Positions 2,673 through 43,300 of a stretch of DNA of 50,460 nucleotides are shown here, piece by piece; position 1 is the first letter of the stretch, and each line of letters starts with the position of its first letter. The position numbers were made by a program, and so were the translations under genes. Source of the DNA: a virus; IMG/VR virus record IMGVR_UViG_3300035701_000048, positions 1 to 50,460 of that record; one strand, 5' to 3'. The notes beneath the pieces are model-generated. The model saw only the letters and a list, made by a program, of their open reading frames with translations, was not told where the DNA came from and searched no databases.

Positions 2673-3158
2673 ATGCAAGAATGGCATGTTTGGTCTATAA
2701 TTCAGGCTCACTATAAGAATATTGAAAATTTTCTTACTAGTCTTCCAGAAATTGAAGAATTTCTTTACCCCAAAATCATAAAAGAATACGAAACTAAATT
2801 TGGTAGAAAAACTAAGAACATACCTCTATATAGTACCTATATATTTGTAAAGTATGATCATACACCCACCACGATGGCAAAACTTATGTCTTGCGAGTGG
2901 TTGAAAGGGTATATAGGTACGTGTAATGAACAAGAAATTGCGGCGGTAAATGAAGTATCTAAAAAGAAGTATGAAGACCTTATTCCTACTAAAGAAGTAA
3001 AAGTAGGGCATAGATATAAATTAATAGGTACGCCTTTTAAGGGAACGACTTGTTTAGTCAACGATATTTCTAATGATAGAATCACTGTTTCGGTGGAGAT
3101 ATTTGGTTCGGAGAAATTTATAAAATGCGCATACGAAGATCTGGATTTGGAAAGGTGA
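2673..3158 (+). CDS. NusG-like transcription elongation/antitermination factor
   Basis: The 161-aa protein has the two-domain plan of NusG. Residues 3-90 form an NGN-type domain: W-H-V-W-S-I-I-Q-A-H-Y near the start, I-P-L-Y-S-T-Y-I-F-V-K at 50-60, and W-L-K-G-Y-I-G-T at 76-83. Residues 107-160 form a KOW domain: V-G-H-R-Y-K-L-I-G-T-P-F-K-G at 111-124, ending in V-E-I-F-G-S like the 'IFGR' of NusG. NusG proteins bind the clamp of a cellular-type RNA polymerase, and phage or specialised paralogues often act as operon-specific antiterminators. It is slightly shorter than host NusG. Position just before the packaging and structural genes suggests control of late transcription. It could also serve the polymerase-like domain in the tape measure. 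Confidence 0.85.
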   Translation: MQEWHVWSIIQAHYKNIENFLTSLPEIEEFLYPKIIKEYETKFGRKTKNIPLYSTYIFVKYDHTPTTMAKLMSCEWLKGYIGTCNEQEIAAVNEVSKKKYEDLIPTKEVKVGHRYKLIGTPFKGTTCLVNDISNDRITVSVEIFGSEKFIKCAYEDLDLER

Positions 3159-4128: not shown

Positions 4129-5823
4129 TTGACATATGGCATAGAATCTCTAGAAGAAATTTTTGAACAGGGTAAAAACTTAGTAGAATTCTATAGACAA
4201 CACCCAGTTCTAGCTGCTTATGATTTATTAAAAGTTGATTTAGCGCCTATTCAGCGGATGGTTCTTAGGGACATGTGGTTCAAGAATTTTACTATTACCG
4301 TTATGTCGCGTGGAGGCGGGAAAACCTTTCTACTAGGCGTTAACGCTGTTCTGCATGCGTTGTTATACCCTGGTTATAGAATAGGATTGATTGCGCCGTC
4401 ATTCAGACAAAGTAAACTGATTTTTTCTGAGGTAGAAAAATTATATAGTAGATCTAGTATACTACGAGAAGCTACTGAAAAACGTCCTACTAGAGGCGCC
4501 GATAGTTGTTTTTTGAGATTTAAAGGCACACCTACTACCAATGGAAGTTATATTGAAGCGCTGCCTATTGGAGCGGATGGCGCGAAGATTCGTGGGTCCC
4601 GTTTCTATTTAATTGAAATAGATGAGTTAGCACAAATGATTCCGGAGATCATTGATTTAGTTATTAGACCTATGGCAGCGGTTTCATCGGAACCTATGGA
4701 GAGAGTTAGAAGCAAAGAGCGTCAAGAAGAACTTATACATCTTGGTTTAGCTACCGAGGACGATTTTACTGACCACGCGGCGAATAAAATGATCATGACT
4801 TCGTCTGGTTATTTTAAGTTCAATCACATGTGGAATAAAATGTGCTCTTATTGGCAAGCTATTAGAGAGCAAGGACCTAATTCTAGATACGCTGTTCATC
4901 AAATTCCATATACTCAATTACCAAAAGCATTTTTGGATGAGGAAAACGTTCGTGAATCACGTAGAATAATGTCTCGTATAGAGTTTATGATGGAATACGA
5001 GGCGGCAATGGTGTCGGATAGTGACGGATTTTTTAAAGCGTCTTTATTAGATGGTTGTACTTTAAACAGTGGGTTTACGGTTAAAGCCAATGGGGAGGCC
5101 GGTAAAGAATACCTTTTAGGGGTAGATCCTAATCAAGGTGGGGCTGCAGCGTGTGGATTGTCTCTAATAGAATTAGGTACTCCGCATAAATTAGTTTTTG
5201 TTCGCGAACTGAAAAAGAAAACCACCCAACAAATGGTCATGGAAATACAACGAATGTGCGGTCTATTTGCTGTTAAAAGAATTTTTATGGACTCTCAAGG
5301 CGGTGGAAAAGCCATAAAAGATTTATTAGAAGAGGGGTATAATAACAATGAACCTATACTTGATTTGGACGAAGAAAAAAATCGATTAAAGCCAGGAAGA
5401 CATATATTGAAATTAGTTAATCCGTCAACTACGTGGATTTCAGACGCTAATTTCGATGCTTTAGCTTTATTAGAAAATAAGCGCTTGAAATTCCCTTCAT
5501 TACCAACCTCGGCAGACCCGACCTCTGAATTGATTTATGAAGATGTAAGAAGACTTAAATCTCAAATGCTAAACATTTTTGTGAGTCAAACAGCCAGAGG
5601 CGCGGTTCATTTTGATACTCCTAAAAAAGGGCAAAATAAGGATTTATATTCATCTTTTATATTGGCGTGTTGGGGCGCAAAAGACTATTTTCGTGACACA
5701 GATGAAGAAGTTCATGTAGCTATGAGGGGTTTGGTTAGACCGCATCGACAAGGGGCAACGTTTGCTGGTGTGGGCATTGGTGCTGGGCAGAACTATACAC
5801 AACAAGCGACATTAAAGAAATAA
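4129..5823 (+). CDS. terL: Terminase large subunit
   Basis: The 564-aa protein shows the packaging ATPase: Walker A S-R-G-G-G-K-T at residues 60-66, a motor strand ending G-L-I-A-P-S-F-R-Q-S, and Walker B L-I-E-I-D-E at 161-166 (D165, E166). The C-terminal RNase H-like nuclease has G-V-D-P at 331-334 (D333) and I-F-M-D-S-Q with D388. A further acidic patch lies near the end (K-D-L-Y-S-S-F). The enzyme translocates DNA into the prohead and cuts concatemers. The start is a TTG immediately after the TAG of the upstream gene, with GGAGG about eight bases upstream; no in-frame ATG lies nearby. The length is normal for the family. Confidence 0.95.
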   Translation: MTYGIESLEEIFEQGKNLVEFYRQHPVLAAYDLLKVDLAPIQRMVLRDMWFKNFTITVMSRGGGKTFLLGVNAVLHALLYPGYRIGLIAPSFRQSKLIFSEVEKLYSRSSILREATEKRPTRGADSCFLRFKGTPTTNGSYIEALPIGADGAKIRGSRFYLIEIDELAQMIPEIIDLVIRPMAAVSSEPMERVRSKERQEELIHLGLATEDDFTDHAANKMIMTSSGYFKFNHMWNKMCSYWQAIREQGPNSRYAVHQIPYTQLPKAFLDEENVRESRRIMSRIEFMMEYEAAMVSDSDGFFKASLLDGCTLNSGFTVKANGEAGKEYLLGVDPNQGGAAACGLSLIELGTPHKLVFVRELKKKTTQQMVMEIQRMCGLFAVKRIFMDSQGGGKAIKDLLEEGYNNNEPILDLDEEKNRLKPGRHILKLVNPSTTWISDANFDALALLENKRLKFPSLPTSADPTSELIYEDVRRLKSQMLNIFVSQTARGAVHFDTPKKGQNKDLYSSFILACWGAKDYFRDTDEEVHVAMRGLVRPHRQGATFAGVGIGAGQNYTQQATLKK

Positions 5824-7916: not shown

Positions 7917-9017
7917 GTGAAAAAATACATACCTGTCAGATTAGAAGCTGAAATAGATATTATTGAAGGTTCTGAAGAGCTTAGAAAAGCAGTAGCTTCT
8001 ATCGTGAAATTCCCAGAAAACAAAACGCCCGACATGCTGTTTTTTTCTGGCATTTTTGTATCGTCAGGCGAAAATCTTAATAGGGCATTTTTCTTGCCGT
8101 CCGAACTAGTTAAAGCATTCCACACTATAGATAACAAAGCATTGGATATTGAGCATGATGAAATGCGGATTGTTGGGCATATTTATTCAAGTGCGTTTGT
8201 AGATCATGGTGGTAACAAATTAGATGTTGCCGAGCTTAAGAAAGTTCCGGAAGCGCAATTAAATAGTATGAATTTAGATATTATGATTGCTGGTATTTTG
8301 TACAGTAGTCGTTTTCCTGAACTTGCTACCGAAGTAAAAGATAAAAAATGGAAATTATCTATGGAAACTTATTTTCAGAATTTTGATGTGAAAATAGGTA
8401 ATTTAATTTTAACTCAGAAAGAAGCCGAAGTGTTAGGATTAACTGCGGATTCTATACTGGGTAGATTAGCTAGAGTGTTTAAAAAAGGGCAAGAAATAGC
8501 TAAAGGAAGTGTTGCTCGTGTATTACGTGAATTGTTATTTTCGGGATGTGGACTTGTCAAACAACCCGCTAATCCTAGATCTTTAATTCTAGAGGTCGCA
8601 ACTAAAAGGGGCGCTGGCATGAGTAAAGATGAAATTATTATAAATTTAGATGATCCTGATGGTAGTAGAGCGCGAGCTGCGGATTTACAATTTAATTCCC
8701 CAGTCGATGTCGCTCCTGGCCCAGGCGCTTTGGAAGATAGGACACAGACAAGCCCAGGGCTGTGTGTTAGTTATAAAAGACGAGTTATAGATGCAACTTT
8801 TGAAGGCCCAGATAGTAAAATTTTGCATGAAGATTGGTGTGCTCTTTATGAAAGAGGATGCACTTCTCCTTCAAGGGGGGCAGATAATCCAACATGTCTA
8901 CGAAATGTTATTCCAGACGAAGCCAAAAGAATTGTAGCGCACAGACTAGATGAAATTGATAAGAAAGATAATAGAAGCGGTCTTCTTAAACAATTACAAG
9001 AAGTGTTAGGCGCTTAA
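7917..9017 (+). CDS. Prohead maturation protease
   Basis: From the GTG at 7917 the product has 366 residues. The first 150 residues look like a phage prohead protease of the herpesvirus-assemblin fold. There is a His in L-D-I-E-H-D-E-M-R-I-V-G-H (H80), and the later strand K-W-K-L-S-M-E-T-Y-F carries the candidate catalytic serine S148. F-S-G-C-G-L-V-K-Q-P-A-N-P is a typical closing motif. These enzymes cleave scaffold and capsid proteins inside the prohead. The C-terminal part (about 280-366) is an extra segment with five cysteines (C-V-S-Y, D-W-C-A-L-Y-E-R-G-C and N-P-T-C) of unknown role. The place between portal and scaffold fits. The serine is inferred from pattern only. Confidence 0.75.
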   Translation: MKKYIPVRLEAEIDIIEGSEELRKAVASIVKFPENKTPDMLFFSGIFVSSGENLNRAFFLPSELVKAFHTIDNKALDIEHDEMRIVGHIYSSAFVDHGGNKLDVAELKKVPEAQLNSMNLDIMIAGILYSSRFPELATEVKDKKWKLSMETYFQNFDVKIGNLILTQKEAEVLGLTADSILGRLARVFKKGQEIAKGSVARVLRELLFSGCGLVKQPANPRSLILEVATKRGAGMSKDEIIINLDDPDGSRARAADLQFNSPVDVAPGPGALEDRTQTSPGLCVSYKRRVIDATFEGPDSKILHEDWCALYERGCTSPSRGADNPTCLRNVIPDEAKRIVAHRLDEIDKKDNRSGLLKQLQEVLGA

Positions 9018-9445: not shown

Positions 9446-9449
9446 CGAA

Positions 9450-9473
9450 TTGATTTAGCGCTGAATAAATCAA
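9450..9473 (+). promoter_or_regulatory. Perfect 8-bp hairpin between the two paralogues
   Basis: TTGATTTA (9450-9457) and TAAATCAA (9466-9473) are exact reverse complements around the loop GCGCTGAA. It starts just after the stop of paralogue A. A second weaker stem AAGGG (9477-9481) with CCCTT (9495-9499) follows. No T tract is present, so this is more likely an mRNA stabilising or processing hairpin than a terminator. Confidence 0.55.
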
Positions 9474-11492: not shown

Positions 11493-11501
11493 AATATGCT
11501 T

Positions 11502-22243: not shown

Positions 22244-22304
22244 TCCCACCTAAATTGGCAAGGAAAGGTCTTCTAATTTTATTGCTTGAGCTATTCACCA
22301 TTTT

Positions 22305-22310
22305 GGGAGG
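22305..22310 (+). promoter_or_regulatory. Ribosome binding site fixing the tape-measure TTG start
   Basis: GGGAGG lies eight bases before the TTG at 22319. The in-frame TTG at 22286 has no such site, so 22319 is the better start. Confidence 0.7.
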
Positions 22311-22318
22311 ACTTTAGC

Positions 22319-25300
22319 TTGCCACCAACCGATACCTACAAGATTCAAATTGAATCGATCAAAAATTCAGAAGCGGATCAGCCTACAAAAAATTTAGCTG
22401 AGAAAGTAACTCGCCTAGCTAGTGCTATGGAAAAACTGGAATCGGTAATGGAGAAGGTTGCCCCTATGATGGGCGACACTGGTAGAAGTGCGCTCGACAC
22501 CATCAGAACTGTTACTGGAATAGCTCAGTCCGTTGAAAGGGTTTCTAATAAGATTCAAGATACGGTTCAAGATTTGGATAATGAGATAAAAGGAATGAAA
22601 CGCGATGTTCCTTTAGCCATTTCTCAAGCTAAACAAACCGGTCAAATCGCTATTCAAGCCGCTCGGGATTTTCCTTATGGTAAAGCCATTTTAGATGCTA
22701 TTAAAGATCTTGCTAACACTTATAGACAATCACAAACTTCTCCAACTTATGCGACAGGTAGAGACGAGGTTCTTTCTAGTATATCAAATTTAGTGCGAGA
22801 ATTTGTTAAAAGAGATCGTGATGTTGGTAATATATTAGAAGCTTTGAAAAGCATGACTCAAGCTATGGGTATGGGTAAAATCGGTGCTCCAGCAGGTCAA
22901 CCGGCACTCGCACTCCCATCCACAATCATTGATATTAAAGATTTTAAAGTCGTAACACAAGAAAATATCAGTGCGCCTATTAAAGAACTTACTACAGCTT
23001 TAAAAAGAGTCGAAACCAACACTCAAGGAGAAATAAGTAAAGGTACTAAAATAGATAATAAAGGAATAACTGATGTTCTTAATGCGTTGGTAACGGCTGC
23101 TAGACAGTTAAAAACTGAAACCCCAGAAAAAACTGGAAACATTTCGGAACTTACAAGCGCTATAAAAGAATTAACTGTTATTGTTAAACAACTGCCTGCT
23201 GATGCTCTCCAAACAAGGGACGTTATTTTAAAACAGGTTAAATCGGCTTTAGCCGATACTACCATACCTACTAAACCACATGTGGAAGCCGTAGCCCCAC
23301 AAGCGCAATCTTATGTAGTCGCTCCTACTACAACTAAAATTCATGGTGATGTTGATTTTCTAGGCCAAGCACTTAAAAACATGGGCGTAGAGTTCGAGAA
23401 AATAAAATCCGAACTAAAAGATAAAATTGTAGTCGCCATAGATTTAGAAACTTCACAAATGAAAGACGCTGGTAAAAAAGATACACTCGGTAACGTACTA
23501 AAAACAGCCGATATTATAACTCAAATTGCTACTTTAAAAGGCACACTAGATCAAATACGTTCTGGAACTGCTACTAAGCAAAACATATATGTTAAACCTC
23601 CAGAAGGTATAAATACAGAAAAAGCCTATAACGACCTTATTGGAACTGTCGGTGAAGCCAAAATTGAATTGGGTAAATTATTATCTGAGGGTGTTAATGC
23701 AAAAGACGCTATGTCTTCGTTGGCGGAAACATTAAAAGACGCTGATGCTATAGTAGGACATAACATAGCTGGATTTGATCTTAATGTTATAAACGACCAG
23801 TTTAAAAAACTTGGGATGGACGTTAATCTATCTTTAAAAAAATATGTTGATACTGTGGATTTATCGAGATCGAATTTTCCAAATAGAATGGTCAGTTCTA
23901 TTACTGGTAAAAGGCTTGATACATCGCAACCTCATGCTTTACCACAGATAGAGGGAGACTTATCGTTGGCTGGCCACAAATTTGCAGGTGCAATGCACGA
24001 AGCTTCGCATGATGTTGAAGTGATAGGCCCACTTTTGAATGCTTTTGAAGAAGGCACAAAAGAATATAATGCTATGATGAAAAACAATACCGCGCAGATG
24101 AATGCAATTACTGCTGCATCTAGAGCGGCTGCTGGGCATTTCAAAGAAATAGGTGACACTTCTGCTAGATTAAGTCAATCTATGGCTGCTGCATCTGATA
24201 TTACTGATGAAATGATACAGGGTGGAGCGGATTATAATAGTAAACTTCGAAACGCAACTAGAAGTATCAGTGCTATGGAAGTTATGGGCGATCCAGTTAA
24301 AATGCGCTCCGCTTTACAAGCTATTCAATTCAAAGAGCAGGTTATTCACCCATCAAGTAGACCAGAAAATTTTGGATTTGCCGGGCCGGAAGGATCTACA
24401 AAAGATCAAGCTACTCTTTCTTATCTATCTGGTCTTTCAGAATCATTAAATAAATTACAAACCGGAATTGTAGAAGCTCTTGAACGTGGAATGACCAAAG
24501 GTGTTCAGATTCTTAAGACTAAGGGTGAATCTTTTCAATTAGCCCCAGGCGGTAGAGAATGGGAACTAAAAATTGCAGATGTAAGAGAACTACGAAAAGC
24601 AGTAACTGAAACATATCATAAATATTCCGCTCCAGGTTCATCAGCCGAAGAATTGGTGGATAGTTATAAAAAGGCTTTTGTTGAACGCCGCTTATCTACT
24701 CCAGTTCCAGCCTCTGAAATGGCAGCTTCAGTAGTAACAACAATAAGAGGTCTGACTAAAGAGCAGGCCAGTTCTCTCGGAGAAGATGTAAAAAATATTT
24801 TCGACAAAATACAACAAAGAAGTATAACAACCGAAGATGTTGAAAGTAACGCCGGATTGTATGGACTTTATAAAAACGTATCTCTTAAATTAGAATCTGA
24901 AAAGTCTGTAGAAGGATATATGAAGCGTTTGGCTATTCCTGCTGCGCGTGTGTCACAACAAGGTATTCCTATTTTAGAAACCAAGTATGGAGCAGAAAAA
25001 GGATTAGCTAATTTTGCTACTATTACCACAGGTTTAGAGAAGTTAATCGAAGAGTTGAAATTATTAAATACTCCGCAGATGGATGTTGAGAGATACAGCA
25101 GACAACTTTCTAATATTCCTTTACGACCGGCAACCGGATCTACTGGAGAAGCCGCTGCTGCAAAATTGGCGGAAGAGTTGCTTAGTGAAGTATCTGGTCG
25201 AGGCGGTACTAAACTTATTAGTGGCGGTTATGCTTCAGCCGCTACACTTAAAGAAGTAGATCGTGGCACCCCTCTTGAAGAAGCTCGTACCAAAGTCATG

Positions 25301-28300
25301 GGCTATGGCGCGAAAGGACTGGAGTCTTTAATAGAAGAATCTGGTAAATTGGGTGTCACAGCGCTTGATGTAGCTAAAGCTTTAAGTGAAATAAAACTTG
25401 ATAATTTCTACGATATGCTAAATCAGCTTCTTCAAGCTGGTAAAGTACCGTATTTAGAAAAACAAGCAGCGAATATTCATAAGTTTGATAGAAATCTTCG
25501 AGAAGTGTCGGGTGTAATTAACGATGTTATGGGCTTGATGCCTATGATAGAACCCGGTCGTCCACTAAGAAAGCCGTATGATGCGGCATCCTTGAGAGTA
25601 TTGACTAAGCCAACGGAAGAGTTGCGCCCAGCCGATGCTAAGTCTCACATAGTAGAAGCTAATTTACTTTGGAAAGATATGGCTGAAAACTCTAAAAAAT
25701 TGGGCGAAACCATGATTCAGGGCAAAGAATACATGGGGCAACCGATTGCGTCTTCGTTGGATTTAAGTGATGCTGCTAGTTCAGAATTAAAGCAATTTAA
25801 TCTTGAGTTTGGAAGTCGTTTACAATCTATAGATAAAACTATGATTGGAATGAATACGTCTGATTTACGTGGGTTATCTCCATTCAAGGATTTTAGTTCT
25901 ATTCAAAGACAGGTATCTTATATTACTAGTGGATTAACTGGTGGTATTCCTGGCGGCGGAAAATTTGAAACACCGTCTCTAGTAAGTGAACGTGAACGTA
26001 AATCCATTGAATCGGGTCAGTTTGGTACCGAAGGTTATGGTCTTAATGTTTTAACTGAAATAAGAAATACCGCTGGTACTTTTGAAGACCAAATCATGAT
26101 TGCTGGAAAGTTAGCCAAAGCATTTACGAATATAGTCCAAAGATTAGTAGAGCCTGGCACTAAAGTAGACATAACAGAGATTGAATCCGGAACTCAGAGA
26201 GTATCGTCACGCGCAAGAGATGAATTAAATAAACAAGTAGGCGATGTAGCAAAAGAATTTCAGACTATTTTAGGAGTTCCGGAGAGATATAGAGGTCGCG
26301 CTGATGTGGCTGAAATAGGTAAAGAAGTTGAGACGGTGATGAGAGAGCACCGTGGACAGACAATTGATGTTCAAACTGCTAAGTTAACAGAGACTTTCTT
26401 AGATTATTTTGGTAGAAAATTAGCCACTCGTTTTGGAACAAAGGGAGTTTCTATAACACCAGAAACAGCTCCTACTGAATTTAGAGAATATCAAGAGCTT
26501 GCTAAACTAATGGCCAGTGGAATGAAAGCTAAAATTGTTCCAGGCGAAGGGCTTGGCTATGCTCCTGTACCTAAGAGCGCCGGAACTTTGGTTTCTGAAA
26601 TGTTGTCAGACGCTTTTAAAGGATTACATACAGCCGAAGCCCCAAAAGAATTACACGATAAGTTAATTGAATCGGGTAATAAATTTATATCGGACTTATT
26701 TAAAGACACAAGATTAGTATCCGAAGATGAGGCCAAAAAGCAAACAGAATTATATGAACGAGTTAATAAAATTTGGACTGAAAAATTTGGCGAAGAGCTT
26801 CCTACAGGACCTTCTGGGATTAAAAAAATACGAAAATTATATGAGACTAATGAAACGTCTGCCGAGAACGGTATAATAGAAGAGGGCGAGTCGAGATCTG
26901 CTTATACAATGCAGCCTATAGAGGCTAGAATTAGTGCTCGTGGTATAGCAAAAAGAGGATTAATGCCAGAAGTTTTAGAGGCTATAATTAATAATTTAAT
27001 TGGAAGTAGGTCTGGAACTACTACCATTAAAGATACCATCGATGAGAAAGTTTTGACTGGAAGTAAAGAAGGACTTGCTACTATAAATGAATATTTAAGT
27101 AATTTAGGTTATGAAAAATTTACTGATATAGGTGAAATGGTTAAGAGACTTAAATCAGAAAATCCTAAACTTACTGATGCAGACATTGATAAATTAAAGG
27201 AATATGAATCTAATTGGTCAGTTTATACCACTATTTTAGATGAGTTTGGTAAAAAAACACAGGCTTTAGTTGCTCCTAAATTTTTACAAATAATAGAAGA
27301 GCCTCATCTGTTTGGTGAATGGACTCCACGCGAATTGGATAAAGGTGTTAAGGGTGCCAAATTAGATTATCAATCTTTCTCTGCATATGCTGGAATTTTT
27401 GGTGAAGGATCATCAATGCTTAAAGAATTAGCTGGATCCACTTCTTTGAATTCTAAAGAAGGGTGGGAATTAATTAGGGCATTCCAATTGATGGATCCGA
27501 CAATGAAGAATTTGAAGGAAAGTATTCTAGAGGGTTTACCTAAAATAGAGCTTTCAGACATTACTGAAAAATTCGAGGGCGCTACTGGAACAGTAAAAGA
27601 ATTAAAAGATACCATTCTAGATATAGCTAAATTTCCAACAGCTATGTCTCTTAAAATACCTGGTGCTAAGTCTGGAACTTATGATCAGATGTACGTTCCA
27701 GGACCAGCTCTTCGTGGAACATACCAAGAAGATTTGATGGGTAGAGCAGCTCCTACAAACGTTGCACGTTATTTAGCAAATCTAATAAATTCTGCAAAAG
27801 ATGTGGAAGAACTGACTGGCGCAGCTGCCAAAGGAAATATAGGATTAGGTGAGGAATTCCAAACCAAATTTGCTTCCACGCTTAAAGCCGAGTTAGTTAA
27901 AGCTCTTACTGATTTAATGAACAGATTTAAAGATATGGAAAAAGCACCTACTCCACAAAATATTGCTTTTATGGAAGAGATGATCAAGAAGTATAAGGGC
28001 GGTTTATCTACTGAACGCCCGGTGTCTCCTATTTATCAAGAGGGGCTTGGAACATCGGAAGCGGAAGCGTTTGAGGCGTTTGCTGGTAAAACCAAAGGTC
28101 CTAAAAAATATAGTACTACTATGGGCAGGCTTTCTGATTTGTTGATTGGCGCCGATCCTGAATCTCTTAGACGAGAAGAAGCTCGTATTAAATCGGCAAC
28201 AAAAACTTATGAAGAAAGTGGTAAAAAGCGAATTCCTTATGAGGTACTTTCAGAATCAGAGAAGGGGCGTTTAGAAAGCGGCACCGGTTTTGAAACCATG

Positions 28301-31300
28301 ATGCAGCAACATTTACGTAGAACTCAAGAGCGTGGTAAAGCTAAGTCTATATTTGAAGTGGAATTAGAAGCTTATAATCTTGATGCTTTTACTAAAAAAA
28401 TTGGAATGAGTCTCCAACAATCAGTTGAAGAAGCATTAACTACAAAGATGGAGTCTTTAAGCCGCGCTAAAGTGGCTTATGCTGAAGCGTTAGGCGAAGA
28501 AGTTTTTGGAAAGAAGAAAGGAATTGAGCAAACATTTTTTCAAAGAGTGACTCCAGCTGTTACAGGTAAAGCTGTTTCAGCTGTTACTGATAAAACCGAA
28601 GAGTTAATGACTCTTTTAACAGTGCTTAAAGATAATGAAATAGCAGGTTTAGAAGGACTGTCGGGTAGTTTAACAAAAATTATAGCGGGTCATAGCGAGT
28701 ACGTAGCTAAATCTAAACAATTAGGACTTCCAGTATTAAAGGAAGGTGAGATTGGTCTGCCTGGCGAAATGGCTAGAAAGGTCCCAGTAGAGGGAGGAAA
28801 TCTAGCTGATCTAATTAAGAAGCAACAAGAAACTTATGTAGAATCTATTAGATATCCTTTTACTGGAACGTTGAGTGTTCAACCACACAAAGCTAAATTG
28901 ATGGAAGACATTCTTCCTGAAGGCGGCAAGTACGGTAAATACTCAATTGCAGTTCCAGGCGCGCCTCAGCTTGATTTGCCAGAACTAAAGAAAATAATTG
29001 ATACTCTAAGAGAGTATATTGGTGTAGAGCCTAAAAAGAATTTGCCTAGTAATGTAGTTCCTTTGATGGAGCAGCGCGAAAAAGCTTGGGCTGAAAATAC
29101 AGATGCTGGTGCTCAGAAAGTCGCTGAGTTGACTAAAAATATAGAACAACTTCTCGCAGTAGTTGATAAGGCATCTCCAAAATTTATAGACATGGAGCAA
29201 AAACTAGATTTTGATGGTGATGCTTTGTTTGTACATACAGGGCAATTAGAAAAATCAAGAGAAGAAATTAAAAAACATTATGATATGTTAGGATCTGATG
29301 TTACGGCTGTTAGAAATCTTTTTCGATCGGTGTTTTCAGCTGTGAAAGACACAGATGTAGCAAGTTTATCAGAGATGTCTCAGGTTTTTGCTAAGAAACA
29401 TCCAAAAGCGAAGGGTTTTGAATTTCTTACCAAGCCCTATGTGACAGAAGGCGCAGAGAATCTTTCGATGCCAGAAGTTATAAAAGCTTTGCAAGAATAT
29501 TCTCCTGAAGCTGCTGGAAAGAAACCTCAAGAGTGGATGACCAAGAATTTAACATCTAATGTGATGCCACAAGTATTTGGTCGTTTAGGTGTTCCGGAAG
29601 GCGAAAGGCCTGGCTATCTTACTAACATGAAAGTAAGTGAGGAAGGATTACCAACTGTTGGTGGAGAAGGGCAGTTTGTAAAACGTATTAATGAGTTAAC
29701 CGAAGAATTATTAAGACGACAATTAGTTGAGAAGAAATATAGTGATGCTATTGAAGGGCAGCTTTTTAAATTACATACAGGTATTACAGTAGAAGGCATT
29801 AGTAGAATTGCTAGAATGACGGAGTTAGAAACAGGTTTTGGCCCTGGTTTAGCTAAAACTGGTTCAGGCGGGCCTCCGTCAAAAGAATTTTTGTCTAGAT
29901 GGCCTACAGAGAGTATGGCTCTTGATAAAAAACCCGCTGAAGCGTTTGCTGTACGAATAAATGAGATGCTTAGATTTGTGATTCAAAAAGGCATGGATGT
30001 AAAGCACGCTGGTGTTGAAGCAGTAGGCCAGAAAATAATTGAAAATCTCAATAAAGCTACTGGTGCTCAGAAAATTAAAGAAGCAATGTCCAGTATGAGC
30101 GAGCAGTTTGGTGAACTTGCAGATTTCAATGCACAAATCTCAAACGAAGTTAGATTGAGAGTAGGTAAACTTTCTACTCCACAGTTGAAAGAAGAACTTA
30201 AATTATTTGAGCCGGACATAGACGCCGCTAAATTATCTAATGATCGTGAAGAATTAATTAAAGGAATTATAAGTCATGTGGATATGAATGCGGTGTTTGA
30301 AGAGATATTCAAACAAATTCAATCCAACGCTATTAAAGGATACACTGAGCAGTTGGATAAACAACTTAGAGACATGCCGGCTGGTCCTTCTAAAGTAGCT
30401 TTATTGCGACAAGTTTCTGCCGCTGGTTCAAATGAAACAGTAGCTAGACAAAAAATAAAAGAAGAGTCCGAAACACCCGAAGGTATTAGTGTTTTAAAGT
30501 ATATAACCACACCACTAAGCCCGCTATATAAAATGCGGACTTCTATGGAAACTATAGGCACAGCAGCGCGCCGATCTGATGTAAAACTTCCAGAAGAAGA
30601 TTTAGGCTTACCAGCTACCGAAGAGGGTAAAAGATTAGCTAAAACGTTTGATGAAGTAAGGAAAGCAGCGAATACTCTGACTTCTGGGTTGGAAACTTCG
30701 GTTAGAGTTCCTACCAGAGGCGTGCATACGATGATGGTAGAGAGTGCGATAGAGAAGCGATACAAAGATCTTAAAGATCTGCTTGAGTTTTCTAAAGCGT
30801 CTAGTGAAAGTCCGACTAGTTTTCCGTATGCTTTTGCTGGAATATCCGATACCAGCAAAATGGCGTCTAAAACCTGGAGTGAATCGATGGGTGCAGCTGG
30901 AGTTTCTGGAGCTGGTTTGGTTCCCCCAGGAGAAATGGATATTACTTCTTGGATAGACCAGTTATTGAAAGCTAAAAAAATTGCGGAAGAAAAACTTGAG
31001 GAGTTGTCAGAAAAAGCAGGTCTTCCACAGATTTTACCTGAGGAACAAGCATTAATTGGATATGAATTTGAAAAACAGCACGGCAAACAGATGTCTGCTA
31101 ATGTTAGAGACTATGTTCAAAGAGGAGCTGCAGCTAAAGGTACTACGCTTTCCGAACAAGATTTACAAGCTCAAACAAATGAAATTTATCAAACCGCATT
31201 GGATGTTACTAAATTCCAAGCTACCATAGTGGAACAGTTCAGACGAATAGATGAAATGATAAAGACTGTTCCTGTTCAAATGGCCTACCTACGTGAAGCC

Positions 31301-34300
31301 TTTCCAGCTTTTGGATTGGATAAATCTACTCAAACAGCTGCACAATCTATACAAGAAGCTGCAGCGGATCACAGAACAACGTCAGAAAAAATCGAAGAGT
31401 ATTGGCAGAAGCAACGTGGAGTTTCTAAAGAAGCTGGTAAAGTTGTAGAAAACTCTATTAAAGGAATTGGAGAATCGCAAGCTGCTGGGCAAGATTTTTC
31501 TGGTGGGCTAAGAACTCCATCCGGAGTTTCTCAAGCCATAGACAAAGCCGATTTGGAACGAAAGCGCCGATCATTGCAGTATTTAGAAACAGTGGCTAAA
31601 GGTGGCGAAACATCAACTAAACTAGGCTTTGTTTCTGCTAGTCAGATCCACGCTGGTGGAGCTTATGGTGGTGGAACCCAAGAAGAAGCTATTACTAAAG
31701 CAATGGGTGGGGAAGACGCTGGAACCTTTGCTGAAGCTACTGCTTTTAGAGGTGGGGCTCTTCATAGACAGATCCAAGCCGAGTACGTTAAAAAATACCC
31801 AGGAACTAAAATTGAACAGTATGTAGAAGATGTAGAAAACAAAATAAGCGGTCACTTTGACATTCTTTACGAAGAAGCTGGCCAAAAAATATTAACTGAT
31901 ATTAAAACTATTTATAGCACGGCTGTTTTTGATCGCCTAAAAGAATTGTCAAGCGAAATAGAAAATCGCAAAATAACTGTACAAGAAAAATTAGAGGAAT
32001 TAAAATCTAATAAATCTATGTCTGATTTTGATAAAGATATAGTTAGACGACTAGAAGATTATTTAAGTCAAGTAAATGTTTACTTAAAGCATGTTGAAGG
32101 CGCCACAGGAAAAATTTTAGGCGTAAGTCAATTTAATACAGCTGAAAGATTTGAAATTCCAGTAGGTAAGTTTGATCCTGCTAGATTTGAAAAAGATTTG
32201 TCTGTGGTAAATAAAGCAAGAGGTGGAGTTCCTACTGGAACAGTTGCTACCGAAACCGCGCCTCAAGCTAGTGCGGCGGAAATTCTTAATAGGATGAATC
32301 CAGAGCAGCAAGATCGCTATGATAAATTAAGCAAATCATATATGGAAGATATTAGACGAGCACAAGAGCAAGGCTTGTTTAATAAAGGTGAACAGTGGTT
32401 TGCTACAGGCGGCGCTGGAGGAACCGAAAGTAAACGACATATTTTAGCTCCGGGTGAAGTTCCTAGTTTTAAAGGGACATTAATGGGTGCTGGTGGGGCT
32501 GGGGTTGGTGGAATGCCCCCAATTCCTCCAACTGGTGGTGGTGGCGGTGGAGATGATGATGATTTCTATAAGAAATTAAAAGAACTTCTTGATGGATTAA
32601 ATAAAAGAATTAAAAATGTTAATGAAATTCAAGTAGAAGAGATTGTTAAATTAGTTGAATACTATGAACAAGCGGGGATAGCAGCTGACGCTGCGCGTCA
32701 ATCTGGAAATGAAGATTTAGCTGGTTCTTTCGATGTAATACGTAAAGAAATCGAAGCTCTGATGACAAGTAAAGGCCAAGCCCTAGATTCTGCTAAGAAA
32801 ATAGCGGATTATTATAAACAATTAAATCAGTCCCTATCTGCCAGTGCTGGTGCTGGTGGGCCTTCTGATTTTGGTAGATTAGGAATGCCGCAGATTGAAA
32901 GAAACGCGCCAGAGAGGCCGGAAGCTAAACACCAAAACTTACGTGCCATGTGGGAGTCTTCGGTTAAGTACTATAAATTGGCGGACACTACGGAATTAAA
33001 CAAATTTCCTGGTGGTATTAGCGATATAATTAAATCTACTGCTGAACAAGGTCCTACACCAGACATAACTAAACAAATAAGAGAAGCCATTGCTGGTCTT
33101 CCTGAAGGACAACAAGGTGGAATGCGTAGAATTTGGATGTTCTACAAGAAGGCAGTGGGAGAATACTATCTAAAGCGCTTAGATGAACTAAAGCAAACCA
33201 TAGAAGAAGAAGGCGATTCTTCTAAGGCGCGACAAGCTTACGCGGAATACGAACAAGTAGTTGATAAGTACATAAAGAATATTGAATCTACTTTAACTAA
33301 GATGAGCGACATTTATACTAAAGTTGGTCCATCTGGAGTTAAGGGGGAATGGGTAGAACCTGATTTAGCTAAACTTACTGGTATGTATGAAGACCCCAAA
33401 AAATTAGCTGACCGTATTAAACATGATTATAAAATGAAGGCTAATGTACAACCTCTTATGGATACAATGGTTGGGGATTTGGATGCCACCAAGTTGGATC
33501 AGATGGCAACGCCTATAGATAAAGTAAGAGAAGCTTTTAGACAGATAACTGCGGAAAAGGCTGATATTAAGCCTTTGCTTGCTGATCTAGAAACTTTTAA
33601 ACGTCTAGGTCCTGAAGCGGTGCAAGCTTGGGATTTTAGTAAAATTTCTCAGGATGTGACCGAACTTAGAGCTGGTATGCAAGCGTTCCATAGATTGAAT
33701 TTGTCTGGTTATGGTGGATTGGGTGAGGGATATACTGAAGTAGTTCGTAAAAATGTTGAAGACACAATTAAATTATTGAAGCAACTAGAAAACTCCGTAT
33801 CTTCAGGTAATTTAAAAGCTTCAGAGTATAAACTGACTCCGGTTCCTCAATTTTTAGACACCGAATCGCAGAGATTGCTACATCGTAGAAATGTTGTACA
33901 ATTGCGTGAGACTTTTAGAACACCTACAGAAGCTGGTGGGCCACAACCAGGAGCAGCAATTAATTATAAAATGCGCATCATTGACCCCGCTTCAAAACAA
34001 GAAATAGAAAATGTTCGCGTGGAGTTTAATAAATTAGGTGAATCGGCAACTACAGCTGGAGTTAAGATTGGACTGTTCTCAGAACGATATGAGAACATGC
34101 TTACTAATTTCCAGGACAGAAGAGGAATAGGTCAAGCTTTTGAACGTGTTATCAGATGGGGTCTCGCTAGTAATGTAGTTTATGGTTTAACTGGCGCGCT
34201 AAATGACATGATACAGACCATATCTGATACAGAACTTGGAATGGCTAAGTTACGCCAAGTTATGAGCCCATTAGAAACCGATTTTACTAAACTTCAAAAT

Positions 34301-37300
34301 TCTGCTGTGCAGTTTGCTAAAGAGTATGGAACATCGGTTAATAAAGTATTAGAAGGTATGATTGTTTATGCTCAACAAGGTATAAATCAAAGAGAAGTTG
34401 TGGATAGAACTCAAACTTCTATGATGGCCGCTAATGTAACAACATTAAATGCTGCGGATGCTACCGAAGCTTTAACGGCTGCCATGATGAATTATGGTAA
34501 AGAAGGCGAGACAGCCATGAGATTTTTGGATTCATGGACGGAAGTTGAAGCTAGACATGCTGTTACTTCGAAAGATTTAGCTGATGCTTTAAGACGTACT
34601 GGTGCTGTTGCTAAGACTGTGGGTGTTACTTTCGATCAGTTAAATGGTATAACAACTGCCATCGGAGAAACAACCAGATTTACTGGAGCAGAAATTGGAA
34701 CCGCTGAACGATATATTTTTAGAAGATTAGAAACGGGAAAAGGACCAGCAGAATTATCCAAGGTAGGTATTGGTATTACTAGTAAAACAGGTGACTTGAG
34801 AAGTGCTTTTGATATTTTAGGCGATTTAGCTGGAGCTTGGGACAAATTAACAAATTCTCAGCAACTAAATATTGCTGCCGCTATAGGTGGTTTGCGTCAT
34901 TTTAACTCATTAATTGTTTTAATGGAGAATTGGAATGAAGCTTTAATTGCAACTCAGCAAAGCATGGATTCTAAAGGCGCCGCAGAAAGACGAAATGCCA
35001 TTGTAATGGATACGTATGCTAAGAAAATTGAGCAGGTAAAAGCAGCTGTTTCCGAATTACAAATTCAATTTGGTAGTGCTTTCTTACCGGTTGCTAAAAC
35101 TTTCTTAGATGCCGTTCGTTCTATAGTTGAAGCTTTTAGTAATATTCCACCATGGGTTAAAGCTACTGGCGCAGTACTTGGCGGCTTCTTTGTAATGTTG
35201 GCCAAGGGAAAGGATATTTTAGATTACTTTCATGGAATGTTTGGTGGGTTTGGGTCATCTGTAAAAGACGCTATTTCCACAGCAGTCCTTGAATGGAAGA
35301 AAGGTTTATTTGAAATTTCTGGATTTAAGTCTCCTGGATTAAATATTACTGGGCTAAAGAAAGTCACTGAAGTAGGCCACGTTTCTGAATTAGACACAAT
35401 GATGGGCAAGTTGGTTTATAAGATAGCTCCTATTGGTAGAGCGTGGAATAGTGTGCTTACAGATGTATTTAAAGGCGCTAGTACTGTCACTGACAAATTA
35501 GCTGATATGTTTGATTATATTGCTGGTAGTTCTTTTAAATTAAAAGGTGCTTTGAGTTTGACTGGTGTCGGATCATTTCTTGGTGCTGGTCTAGCAGGAT
35601 TTGGGGCTGTTTCAGATGTAGCGGCCTATGGATTGGATAAAATTTCTCAACTTTTAGGAATGACTGCGCAGCAAACTGCTAAATGGACGCAAGAAAACAC
35701 CGGTCTTTTAGCTACTTTTGGTCCATTGATAGGATCGTTTATTATTTTGGAACCTTTGCTTGCTAAACTATGGAATGGAATAAAACGATCGGCTATGTCT
35801 TCTAAGGATTATCAAGTTTCATTGGCGGATACTAGACGACAACAATCTGATCAACTTAGTGCTATAAGAGAATTAGCTTCGGGATATGATATATTAGAGA
35901 AACGATTGAAAAACGCTCAGAGAATGGGTGATCCTAAAGTTGCAAAAAAAGCCATGGATGAAGGTACTTATAAATCACCTACTAGGGAAATTGGAAATAT
36001 ATTAGAAGCTACTGTTGAATATAGTAATAAGTTGGCTGATAGTAATGATAAACTAGTTTTAAGTTATGATAAGTTTGGTAATGCTGCTCTTAAAGGTGCT
36101 GACAGTCTTAAAACTTTTATTAAGGTAGCGGAGACTTCCAAAATAGGTGAAATGTTCAGCACAGATTTAGATATTTTGAAAAAACATCTAGAAGATCTTA
36201 CAGATGTTGGTTTTGGTGAAAAACTTAAGCGTGAACTAAAACGATTTTTAAATGAGATTCCGGGATTTGGTCCTCAGATGGCAAAAATGATACATGTTTC
36301 ACCTGCCAAAATGTTAGAAGAAGAGACTGGTAATATAGATAAATTACTTTCTGCCAGAGCTCGATATCCCATGACCACAGCTTTTGATAAGACTATAAAA
36401 GAACGATCAGAATCATTAAAAAAGTCTAGAGATGAATTTCAAGATACGTATAAAGAGTTTAAGAAAATTTTAGCTGAACTTCCTACAAAGGGTTTAAGTA
36501 GTGGGCAAATTCAAGGAGCTCTTACATCGCCGGAACTACAAGAAGGCTATAAATTAATGGCTCAAATGGAGCCAAGACTTAGAGTTACCCCAGAAAGTAA
36601 TAAGACGGAACGTATTCCTGGATTTTGGAGCAATTTGATTAAGGGTGCAACAGGGCATGATATTGCTGCTAGACAAAAAGTACAATGGCAAGATGTTATG
36701 GGCATAGAAGTAATGAAGCGTTTAAATCCTGATCAGCCGTTTGATTATACTAAAAAATTAACGCAGGGATTGTTTATGCAATCTGGGGTGCAACCAAGAA
36801 AAGTGGGAGACACAGTATTTTCAGGAGAACGTGTTTTCTTTAGTGATAAAATAGCTGAGAAGTATAAAATAGCTGCTAACCAAGGTATTTTGAAAATAAC
36901 AGAAACTGCTAATGGTTTTATGGAAAGATCGGTAGAAGTTTTTGATACGGCGTTAAATAAGATGCGAAAACTTCCTTATGGGGCTGTGTCCAAATATGTT
37001 GAAAATATTTTTCCAATTAAGGCTATTCAGGAAGATTTATCTGAAAATTTAGAAGCTATGAAGGAAATGGTAGTTGGGGCAGAGGCTGGACTTGTAGGGC
37101 TAACGGGCAAACAGTTTAAGAAAGATTTTCCTTTGGGGGCAAGGTTTTTTAGTCAGATACCCACGAGTACTCTTATTCAGAGTACCAAAGGATACCAACC
37201 TGGAACAGGGTATGGGGAAATTCCATTTAAACAAGATTGGCCTAAATTTTTAGAAGAGTCTTTTATTAAACCAATGCACACTTATAAGCTAATGACTGAC

Positions 37301-40300
37301 CAGTTTACTGAAAATAAACGTTCTGAAACCCCTTTGATTGGTGCCAAGATAGAAGATCTTGAAAAGCAAGCCGATTTGATTAGAAATAATCAAATTGTTG
37401 TTCAATTTATGGGTGTTTTTGAGGATTTGAATAAAATTTTGTCGGAAGGAACTCGCACACTAGAACACAATATTATGGCAGAGCGCACAAGATTTGAATT
37501 GCTTACTAATGTTACTGGTACTTTAGCTGGGCTTCCTAGAGATTTGAAAGAGCTTGATTTGGGTAGGAAGGCGATAGAAGAACTAACTCCTCAACAACGA
37601 ATGGCTCTTGATGAACAGCGATTACCGCCTGAACGTAGAAATTATTTGAACACTTCCATGGCAATTCGTAGTAATGAAATGCGTCGAGAAAGTGCAGTAA
37701 ATGAAATTGTTGATATACGAAAAGCTATGCTAGATATAGGAGAAATAATTAATGTTTCTAGAGGATTTGGAAATGTATTAACCCCCGAAGAAATGGAAAA
37801 ATATACTGAAAATATTGCAAAAACTGGTGACAAAGCGGCTGGAATGCAGTTAACATCTTTAAATAGCATCGATAAAAATACGGCGGATTCTAGTGCTAGC
37901 TTAAATGAATTGAATGCAACTATGAGCGATGTAATGGGTGGATTTAAAACTAAATCTTTTGAAGCCGTAAAAGAAATGTCGCCCAGATTTATAAAAAGCG
38001 AAATGGAGCGGGTAGGGCCAAAATTAGCTGATGCTATTAAAGAAGGTAATATTCAACGAGCTCAAAATCTAGATCAGTATATGGGCCGTTTGGTTCAAGA
38101 ATTAATTATGAAAATAGGTGTAGGCCCAGCTTTACAGCAATCACAAAATATTGGAGGAATGACAAAAAGTCCGGTACTTGATTTTGCTCGTCGAGCGTTG
38201 GGCGTCACTACATACAAAGAATTTGGTACTAAGTTAAATGAAGTTTCTCCCGGCGTGATTGAAAAACCATTGTGGAAAGAATTAATGGCAGCAGAAGAAA
38301 AAAATAACGCGACTTCTATTACGAGTAATAAAACATTACAACAAGTATTAATGGTCTATAGTTTAATGAATTCTTTTGAAAAAACAGCTGCCGATAAAAA
38401 TACGGGTCTTTTAAGAGAGCAACTAGCTAAACTTGAGGACGTTAAAAACACAGCTAAACCAGGAACTGATTTAACTGGCATAGACAAGCAAATTACAGAA
38501 ACAAATGAAAAAATAGCTAATAGTGAACAAGACGCTAATGCTAGGTTGGCTAAAGAATTGCTTGGGCCTATAGCTTTAGCTTCTGAAGAACTTTTAAAAC
38601 AGATGGGGCTTTCTGAAGGAACAATTCGTACTATGGGTAAAATAGTTGGTGGAGCTTATCTTGGTGGTAAGTTATATGAAACCATGACTGGAGTACCAGT
38701 AGGCGATAAACTTCAAGGACTTTATGAAAAGGCTGGCAAAGGAGGAAGTTTTGCTAAAGAAAGAGCAGCGGCAGAATCTGCCATTAAGAAAGAAGGCAGT
38801 ATTTTAGATCCCGAGACAAAAAAGAAATTCGATGCGTTACTCAAGGAACAAGACGAAGCCGCTAAAAAAGGACCAAAAAGTTTATTTGAAGAAGCGAAGG
38901 AAAAATATAGAGCTGATCGTGAAAAGAAGGCGGAAGCCCCAGTAGATAAACTGTTAAATGAAACTCAGGATCAAACTACTATTTTACACGGCATTTATGA
39001 AAACACTAGAACATTGGCTGACAAAACTACCGATGCCGCTTCCGCTGTTCATGGTGTTTTACAAGCAAACAGACCCGAAGAGAAAAATTCTCGTGATGCT
39101 ATTATATCCAGTGTTGATGAATTGCGGAAAGAATATATTACTAGAAATCCGGGATCTCTTACTGGTAAGTTGCTTCTTGCTGCAACTGTAGTTGGTGCAA
39201 CAGGTTATGTTAAAGAGATCGGTGCAATGCGTAATATTTTGAATACTCTTGGTGGTCGCGCTGCTAACGAGACCGGTATTGGTGAAAAATTTGCTAAAGA
39301 AAATATTCCTACATTGGAAAAAGCTATTAGTGTTCATTTAGATGAAATTTTAAAGCGCGCTGGAATTCCAGAAACTAAAAGGCAACTAATTAGTGAGGTT
39401 GCCGACCCAAAAAAACGGAATGAACTTTTTATAGCAGAATTAAACAGAGTGGCAGGTCTTTCAAAAGAAGAGCTTGATAGATTAACCGCGGTAGTAAAAG
39501 ATGAACGTAGCGCTCTTAGTGAGTTACCTACAAAATTAGCTACGGCCATGGAAGACGCTATTAGAAAGGGTGTGCGTGATGTATTTCCATTTCTAACTCG
39601 AACTAATGTTAAAGCTCTCGGAGGCCCACTTAGGGAGGCTGGATTAGGGGAAGGAGCTATTCCAGAAATTCCTGGTATAAAAAGTCTTTCAGAATTAACA
39701 GGATTAGAGAGAGCCGTTGTGGAATCGCGAAAAGTAGGTAATACTAGTTTAGAAAAAGAAATTTATGCTTATAAATCTCTTTCTGCTCAACGCCAAAATT
39801 TTATTGATAAACAAACTGTTGATTTAATAGATATTGGTAAGAAGGACGAGCTGTTTAATGCAACCACTGATCCTACAGAAAAAAGTTTAATCAGTGTAGA
39901 AATAGAATTGTTAAAAAAATCTATCAAGGACACCGCAAAAAACATAGATGAAGTAACTCTTGCTTTAGATAAACTAGCTAAAGTTCCAGTAGTAAACGCT
40001 TTAGGTACATTGCTACAAAGTTTTGAAAAAATGAAGCGCAGTTTTATAGACACAGAAGTGCTTACGTCTTTTAAAAGGTTGACTGACGCATCTGAAAAAA
40101 CTAGACTCGGTGGGAAACACCCATTGTCCCCGCAATATCCAACTTTTGAGATGCTTAAGATGGGCGTCAAAGGTGAAGATCTATTCAAATATAATCAATT
40201 CGATCAACAGAAAATGGCTTTGTTAGCACGTGGTGGACAGATTAACTTGGATGAGTGGTCTCAAATAGAGTTTAATACAAAAAAAGCTGTGATGCAACAT

Positions 40301-43300
40301 GAGCAGCAACCAGAAGAGGACAAGTTGAATCGACAACAGTCGGCTGCGGAACAAACTCGTCAAATGCTATTGGAGGCTCAAAGAAATATAAATCTTCTTC
40401 CTGAGAGTGAGACTAAGATAAAAGGATTGGCTGAAGTAGAGGAGTTGGTTAATTATCTAGAAAATCAGTTATACAATAGTGGGTTTAAACGTACAGTAGC
40501 AGATGAGTATTCAGGAGTTACAAGAGAAGAATACCTTGGTGTTAGTTTAAGTGGATTTGAAACACGAATTAAAAATATAATATCTAAATTTGGCCCAATA
40601 GACGCGAAGACATTGACAGAGCTTGAGAAACAAACTGGTATATTAACCAATATAGAAGACGTTTTGAGAAAGGCTTACAATATACCAAAAGAAATATCAT
40701 CACCTATTTTTCCATATCAAAGCTCTAATATGGAATCATTTAAAGGAGCGGATTATACTGTTAACGATCGAGATGAAGCTTTACGGAAGAAGATCAGTGA
40801 AAGTATGCCATCTGAGGCTAGATTTATTGGTAGGGAAGCTAGTGCTAGACGTGGTGGCAAATCGTTGGGTGAAGAAATAGAGCAAGGTTCACAAGCTTTT
40901 GTTGATTTTGGTTCACTAATTAAAAGGAAGTGGAATGAATTGGGTGTATATTTAAACGCTCCTAATGCGGACGAACCTCCTATACGAGTTTTAACTTTTC
41001 AGGATGAACTCGACAAAGCTGGGGCAGCTATAACCGAATTTAGCAACATTGTGTGGGAAAAGGGAGGTAATGCGATAAAGACTGTTTTAGAATATTTTGC
41101 GCAACCCGATCTTATACCTCCGCAATGGCGCAATAATTATGGCGATGATTATGTAGCACCAGAGGGGCAACAAACAGGCGGCCAGATTGTTGGCCCTGGT
41201 GGTCCTACAGATGATGTAATTCCTATAATGGCTAGTTCTGGGGAATATGTTATTAAAGCAGCCTCTGCTAAAAGATTAGGTAAAAACGCATTGAATTATA
41301 TTAATACCACTGGTCAACTACCTAGACTCGCTGGCGGCGGAGATCTTGATTATTTTTATAACCCAGAAAATCAATTTGATGAAAGCGGCTATTTTCCAAA
41401 ATCGGAACAGGGAGCAGCTAAATCACAAGGGACTTCCTTTGTTGACACCTGGTCTAGAATTTTAGGAAAAGCCGGAGCTGGTGTTGGTGAATTTGCTGGT
41501 AATATTACTGATTATTGGTCAGGTAAAAGCCCAGATAATTTCTTACTTCCGAATATGTCTATGTGGACTAAGGAAGAAGAAATGGATTATGCTAGACAAA
41601 ATCCTAATAAATATGCTCTTACCGCAACTGCTGCTAGTTTTATGCCAATGGCAAAATATGCTTATTCACCCACCGATGTGGAAGAATTTAATGCATCTAG
41701 CAGAGGCTCGAAATTATTGTCTATAATGTCAGAGACTCCTGGTAAAATAATGGGTGGGGGTAAAGCAGCTGCCAATTTGGGAAAACTAGGCCAAGGAGTG
41801 GGAAAACTAGGCCAAGTTGTAGGAAAGGGCGCTAAAGAAACATATGAATTGGGACAAAATTTTGGCGTTCAATCTGCTTTGAATGTCTCAGGTAAAGTGA
41901 TTAAAATAATGGATTTTATTGGTGTAGGTGATCCCGCATTATTAAAAAGCAAATTAGCTACTAGAGCAGCGGAGTCATTGGAAGACTATTTTTATAAAGT
42001 TGTTGATAAGGTTGGTATAAAGGCTTTATTTGATAAAAATATGTTTGGTTACATGTTTTTTGATTCTAAAAATGTGTCTGCTTCCAAGAAAGCAGTGAAA
42101 GATGCCATTGATCAGATAGCTGAATTTACAAAGTATGTAGATCCGCATGACATTAATTTTAAAAAATTCTCAGTAGGTACTAGTGAATTTCTAGGGGATT
42201 ATTCACAAAAAACTGGTACAATAAGATTAGGTATGCAGTCTTTACTTAACCCATTACAGACAGTAAAAGATTATGCAGCTAGCACTGTTAAGAAGTCATC
42301 ACCATGGCATCCATTTACACCACGGGCTACGGACGTATTTAAATCCACCATGTCGCATGAGTTGGGGCATGGATTTACTAAGCCAGGTCCTGGTGCACAT
42401 GTTTCTGGTTCAGCTGAGAAAATGGTTGGTTTGGGTAAAAATACGTATGAAACTACGCAAAAATACTTGGATACACAAACAACAAAAGCTGTGTCTGGTA
42501 CTGGTAGATTTAAACGGCTTAAAGACGTTTATGATTTTTATTCGCAATATGAAAATGAAGCTCGTGCCATAAAAGAAGTGAAGGATAGCATAGCTGAGTT
42601 GACGCCTAAAGTGTCTAGCCGTTATGGATTAACAAATGTGGATGAAAAGGTAGCTACTTTAATAGAAGGGGCAATGCACACACCCATGAAATATGCATTG
42701 CCTGATGTTAAACAGGCGAAAAAATTACTTGGTATTCAATATGCTGAAGGCGGTTCAGTTATGCCTTCGGAATTAGTAGCTTATGTAAATAAGATTATGG
42801 CTCAGAAAAAGTCTGGTAAACTTATGGTAGGGAATTTGGTAGCTAAACAAGACGCTTCTGGTAAATGGACTTTTAGTAATGCCAATAGAATAGACGAATT
42901 AACGAGAGCTACCACAGAAGGTCGTCGTGATCCTTGGGAATTAATGAGTTCAGCAGCACCTTTTGGTTTAACTGGACCATCCGATATATCTAAACTTGGG
43001 CCAGCTAATGCGGCTGAATTTGCTCAGTCTGGTAGATATGCTTCTGTTGGTGAAGGTGATAATAAAGTGTTTGCTTTTAGAGACGATAAAGGCCAGTGGG
43101 TATTAAGTAATGTAGGAGATAGCATACATAAATATGGTCCGGCATCCTACGCTCAAGGCACGTCTTATGTTCCTAATACTCAATTAGCTATGTTACATAA
43201 AGGTGAGGCGGTTATTCCGGCTAAATTCAATCAAGGCGGTCAGGTTGGAAATGTTATAGATACAGCTGATATGGCTGACATAGGTACGCAAATTAGTGAT

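Follow-up and report, generated by a model that had tools for sequence, protein, structure and literature searches.

Does the tail protein of an uncultivated phage carry the active site of a cellular-type RNA polymerase? The window, that is the whole stretch of DNA analysed (50,460 nucleotides), is a 50 kb fragment of such a phage, and one frame encodes a giant protein (Table 1) that comparison with PHROGs places firmly among tape measures. TTG 22319 is a plausible start, with GGGAGGA at 22305-22311, seven bases upstream; residues are numbered here from TTG 22286 unless stated otherwise. The frame lies near a module of head and packaging genes, with the terminase at 4129 and the major head protein at 11496. 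Near the left end, the window also encodes an HD-domain protein (1827-2396) and a predicted transcription antiterminator (2673-3158). The only Pfam families above cut-off in the giant protein are a DnaQ-like exonuclease and PhageMin_Tail. A sequence-only reading had pointed, within the same chain, to a loop resembling the metal-binding site of the β′ subunit of multisubunit RNA polymerases. A tape-measure-fused polymerase is already known: gp96 of the Thermus phage P23-45 is a virion RNA polymerase whose activity, presence in the virion, occupancy of early genes and structure are all proven (PMC10770324; PDB 8h2m, 8h2n).

Two scans of viral contigs returned 26 and then 41 loci, mostly overlapping, and two more loci were found on contigs binned in bacterial metagenome-assembled genomes (MAGs). 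Removal of duplicates left 34 distinct members, the window included; a search of 50,697 phage records found no relative of the polymerase region. Members are often only ~30% identical to each other, and the catalytic residues of both barrels are kept. PhageMin_Tail occurs in the same frame in the window and in 29 of the 33 relatives, so that the loop does share its chain with a classical tape measure, as first noticed. The open frames with PhageMin_Tail range from 2,524 to 8,654 residues; the short ones belong to contigs in which the frame is cut by the contig end or interrupted, and intact frames are mostly 6,400-8,650 aa. In one relative, L021, in-frame TAG codons at 8432-8434 and 9449-9451 break an otherwise conserved polymerase-tape measure frame, which suggests either TAG recoding in that phage or an error. 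Contigs L072 and L073 come from a Gammaproteobacteria MAG and a Candidatus Fermentibacteria MAG, respectively; binning does not fix their hosts.

Table 1. Features of the giant tape-measure protein and of the stand-alone polymerase of its relatives; positions are those of the window unless a contig is named.
Feature	Position	Strand	Residues and basis
Giant ORF, RNA polymerase-tape measure fusion	22286..43762	+	7158 aa; 7147 aa from TTG 22319
DnaQ-like DEDD 3'-5' exonuclease domain	23432..24022	+	aa 383-579; RNase_T E 1.2e-5 (over cut-off), phrog_403 E 5.6e-11
β-type barrel, first signature YGLNVLTEIRNTAGTFEDQIMI	26024..26110	+	within aa 1247-1275; alignment and side-by-side comparison with β counterpart
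β-type catalytic lysine motif GRKLATRFGTKGVS	26411..26452	+	aa 1376-1389; K1378, K1386
β-type PIEARISARGIAKRGLMPEVLEAIINN	26915..26998	+	aa 1544-1571; resembles β stretch; HHalign to stand-alone polymerase
KGAKLDYQSFSAYAGIFGEGSSMLKEL, resembling β C-terminal stretch	27350..27433	+	aa 1689-1716; alignment and visual match only
β′ N-terminal/clamp-like region	27497..28390	+	~aa 1738-2035; structural alignment of aa 1738-2350
β′-type double-psi barrel, DPBB-A	28508..29245	+	~aa 2075-2320; AlphaFold model and VIA-align
RYPFTG, counterpart of β′ NRAPTLHRLG	28850..28867	+	aa 2189-2194; R, P, G invariant; HHalign secondary match
Coiled-coil insertion within DPBB-A	28970..29176	+	~aa 2229-2297; helices in AlphaFold model
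Metal-binding loop DFDGDALFVH	29207-29236	+	aa 2308-2317
Bridge-helix/trigger-loop-like region	29723..30205	+	~aa 2480-2640; contains QLFKLHTG and QKGMDVKHAG
QKGMDVKHAG	29984-30013	+	Q, G, D, K, G invariant (Q.G.D.K..G; 34-sequence alignment)
PD-(D/E)XK-like nuclease domain	31676..32224	+	~aa 3131-3313; GHFDI...LTDIKT motif and weak phrog_1706 match
Tape measure core, PhageMin_Tail	34298..34891	+	~aa 4005-4202; E 1.1e-30; phrog_4211 E 3.7e-83
HELGH zincin-like motif	42356..42370	+	aa 6691-6695; direct reading
Stand-alone polymerase	L122:2332-5595; L121:2326-5604; L080:1-3537		1,088-1,180 aa frames

The loop DFDGDALFVH (residues 2297-2306 when counted from TTG 22319) is identical to E. coli β′ DFDGDQMAVH at seven of ten positions. 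In 2000 composition-preserving shuffles of the giant protein the expected counts were 0.001 for DFDGD and 0.002 for D[FY]DGD, and D[FY]DGDxxxxH never occurred. The pattern KLD[FY]DGDxxxxH is intact in all 34 distinct members, and with it the three aspartates that the sequence-only reading had expected homologues to keep. Upstream lies RYP (aa 2189-2191, window 28850-28858), likewise recognised in that reading as a β′-like element; its R and P are invariant across the 34-sequence alignment.

An AlphaFold model of aa 2040-2780 built on this alignment (mean pLDDT 74.7) retrieves RNA polymerase largest subunits only, among the 50 VIA-align matches listed (Z 11-12). The double-psi barrel on which the first reading had let its proposal depend is present around the loop: DPBB-A has the β′ fold and aligns with Rpb1 342-519 (Z 12.0, rmsd 3.2 Å over 121 residues). 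Alignments of this model reach Rpb1 ~1400, in its C-terminal part; the longer ones (220-260 residues) enter the C-terminal third of Rpb1, which includes portions of the bridge-helix/trigger-loop region and sequence past it. The structures of gp96, crAss-like gp66 and QDE-1 are absent among the 50 matches listed and may rank lower. Foldseek searches of the PDB and BFVD have polymerases among the top matches, none with E <0.001. A second model covers aa 1195-2394 (pLDDT 71.9, pTM 0.43), and its residues 544-1156, corresponding to aa 1738-2350, align with bacterial β′ 11-578 (Z 8-9.8, rmsd ~5 Å); this model suggests that β′ N-terminal and clamp parts are present in the tape-measure polymerase.

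The sequence-only reading had also called for a second barrel with conserved lysines. That signature exists: GRKLATRFGTKGVS is the counterpart of E. coli β GDKMAGRHGNKGVI, with the same lysine spacing (K1378/K1386 versus K1065/K1073), and its R, K, R, G, K and G are invariant in the 32 members whose frame covers it, to which the count for K...R.G.KG is limited. The lysines proposed at the outset, K1675/K1678 (K1686/K1689 from TTG 22286), were the wrong pair and fall in or beside the segment resembling the β C-terminus. Against E. coli RpoB, the best-scoring HHalign alignment lies on GRKLATRFGTKGVS and is not significant alone; downstream, PIEARISARGIAKRGLMPEVLEAI mirrors a further E. coli β stretch. 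The β-type barrel itself is poorly modelled (pLDDT mostly <60 at aa 1195-1420), so this half is assigned from its motifs and from profile comparison. The motifs run in the order β, then β′, as in natural β-β′ fusions and fused polymerases.

We therefore regard it as very probable that the N-terminal 40% of the tape measure is a single-chain, two-barrel RNA polymerase that would be packed in the tail, ejected and engaged in transcribing the first genes. The region could alternatively be a degenerate, non-catalytic polymerase relic with a structural role in the tail; it does sit in a structural protein, and its activity is predicted. Such a relic would be expected to lose its catalytic residues, whereas the two lysines, the arginine and proline of RxP, the aspartates, the histidine after DFDGD and QxGxDxK stay invariant amid sequence that varies freely, and we judge this alternative unlikely.

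Besides the polymerase, the chain carries nuclease-like domains. The DnaQ-like exonuclease is confined to the window's subclade (WIN, L001, L002, L030-L033); the PD-(D/E)XK-like domain, between polymerase and tape measure, is conserved in all members covering it. The HELGH region near the C terminus has no Pfam match. Two-barrel enzymes include archaeal PolD (PMC10770324), and with two nuclease-like domains in the same chain the core might make another product, synthesising DNA as a primase or PolD would, in concert with these domains. DNA synthesis is very unlikely: most members lack the exonuclease, the listed structural matches are to RNA polymerases, the chain has a region resembling bridge helix and trigger loop, and gp96, the tape-measure-fused precedent, makes RNA.

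Searches with known polymerase families gave fainter signals. No Pfam β or β′ family matches above threshold in the window itself; RNA_pol_Rpb1_2 is found in the same frames of three relatives (E 6.6e-5 to 4.3e-4), under its curated cut-off. A search for T7-type polymerases was empty, with controls equally silent. Run against gp96, RpoB, RpoC and phi14:2 as single sequences, HHalign picked the expected motifs for RpoB, RpoC and the gp96 DFDGD, with weak or marginal scores; against small RpoB, RpoC, gp96 and crAss profiles the tape-measure family also scored weakly, the RpoB and RpoC profiles being narrow (E. coli plus one phylum).

Homology is further shown by profile comparison with a second protein. 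A stand-alone single-chain polymerase, a candidate two-barrel, non-virion enzyme, is encoded by two jumbo relatives, of 228 and 238 kb, and by one further contig; in one of them it exceeds the Pfam cut-off for RNA_pol_Rpb1_2, and it has no match in the phage records. Its motifs EDQ, KxxxxxxxKGV, KIDVIVS-KR-ILEALINN, RFP, LDFDGD and QKxG stand in the same order as their counterparts in the tape-measure family, from which it differs in lacking the tape measure fusion and the insertions. In HHalign, the tape-measure family aligns with this enzyme in the β half at E 2.8e-7 over 503 columns, the RxP block at E 3e-5 and the DFDGD block at 0.0048, all co-linear; the reversed-profile control gives E 0.48. 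The stand-alone polymerase in turn matches RpoB (E 1.3e-5) and gp96 (E 7.3e-5), the latter providing an indirect link between the family and gp96; its match to RpoC is not significant. That the DFDGD likeness arose by chance might be entertained for so long a protein, in which D.DGD is expected 0.08 times by shuffling and for which profile searches of PDB sequences returned no polymerase, only kinesin coiled coils (the sole PDB matches of the coiled-coil insertion) and chance matches, but this explanation is negligible and is excluded above all by conservation in every relative, with the structural match, the second-barrel motifs and the profile score adding to the case.

Taken as an RNA polymerase, the chain would be organised as follows. 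The β-type barrel would supply the two lysines, K1378 and K1386; a clamp-like segment would follow, then the β′-type barrel with the DFDGD metal site, putative bridge-helix and trigger-loop elements, a nuclease-like domain and the classical tape measure. If it works as P23-45 gp96 does, the fusion protein would be packed in the tail, the polymerase would be ejected along with the tape measure upon infection, and it would transcribe the first genes during DNA entry.

The family resembles gp96 in domain order. Both are giant chains in which a single-chain two-barrel polymerase, proven in gp96 and predicted here, is N-terminal to the tape measure and has RxP upstream of DFDGD, and both carry a metallopeptidase-like motif, that of the window being the zincin-like HELGH. 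The P23-45 genome also encodes a second, non-virion polymerase, for which the stand-alone enzyme of the two jumbo relatives is a candidate counterpart. Direct sequence similarity between gp96 and the family is not detectable (HHalign P 0.11). At 5,002 aa, gp96 is shorter than most intact frames of the family, and it is clamp-less and flat, whereas the window model aligns to β′ from residue 11 (pTM 0.43). Relatives of gp96 among the 50,697 phage records number ten, from Thermus phages only. The polymerase gp66 of crAss-like phage phi14:2, also single-chain, two-barrel and virion-delivered in a giant protein (PMC7886860, PMC10770324), differs in lying outside the tape measure, and profile similarity to it was not found (HHalign P 0.6). 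Cellular β/β′ and phiKZ/AR9-type polymerases share β/β′ motifs with the family, including FED-I and IDV-S-KR, as well as the structural matches; theirs are separate subunits, whereas the window has one chain with large insertions.

No tape-measure-polymerase fusion other than gp96 was found in the open-access literature. The present family is separate and larger and, in that literature, previously unreported. New relative to gp96 are frames of up to 8,654 aa and the added nuclease-like domains, the DnaQ-like one in the window's subclade only; the coiled-coil insertion inside the DFDGD barrel and the clamp-like β′ parts, both seen in models, may be new as well. A tentative reading, which we hold at somewhat less than even, is that the family captured its polymerase apart from P23-45, as a fuller, clamp-bearing β-β′ enzyme that either descends from the family's stand-alone polymerase or arose together with it by duplication; phages would then have fused a polymerase to their tape measure more than once.

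The sole proven tape-measure-fused polymerase, gp96, is confined to a few Thermus phages and could be an oddity of thermophiles. If the RNA polymerase reading is true, a diverged family spread over dozens of metagenomic phages, some with genomes >200 kb, would show that delivering a polymerase of cellular type within the tail tape is a general strategy. The family also offers a further set of sequences for the evolution of two-barrel polymerases, and nuclease-like domains would be delivered by the same chain. It sharpens the question of how a multi-domain enzyme of ~1,900 residues, with large insertions and perhaps a clamp, gets through the tail tube. Should independent capture be true, a clamped polymerase would have to be able to thread the tail tube, and tail-delivered transcription would be a recurrent solution.
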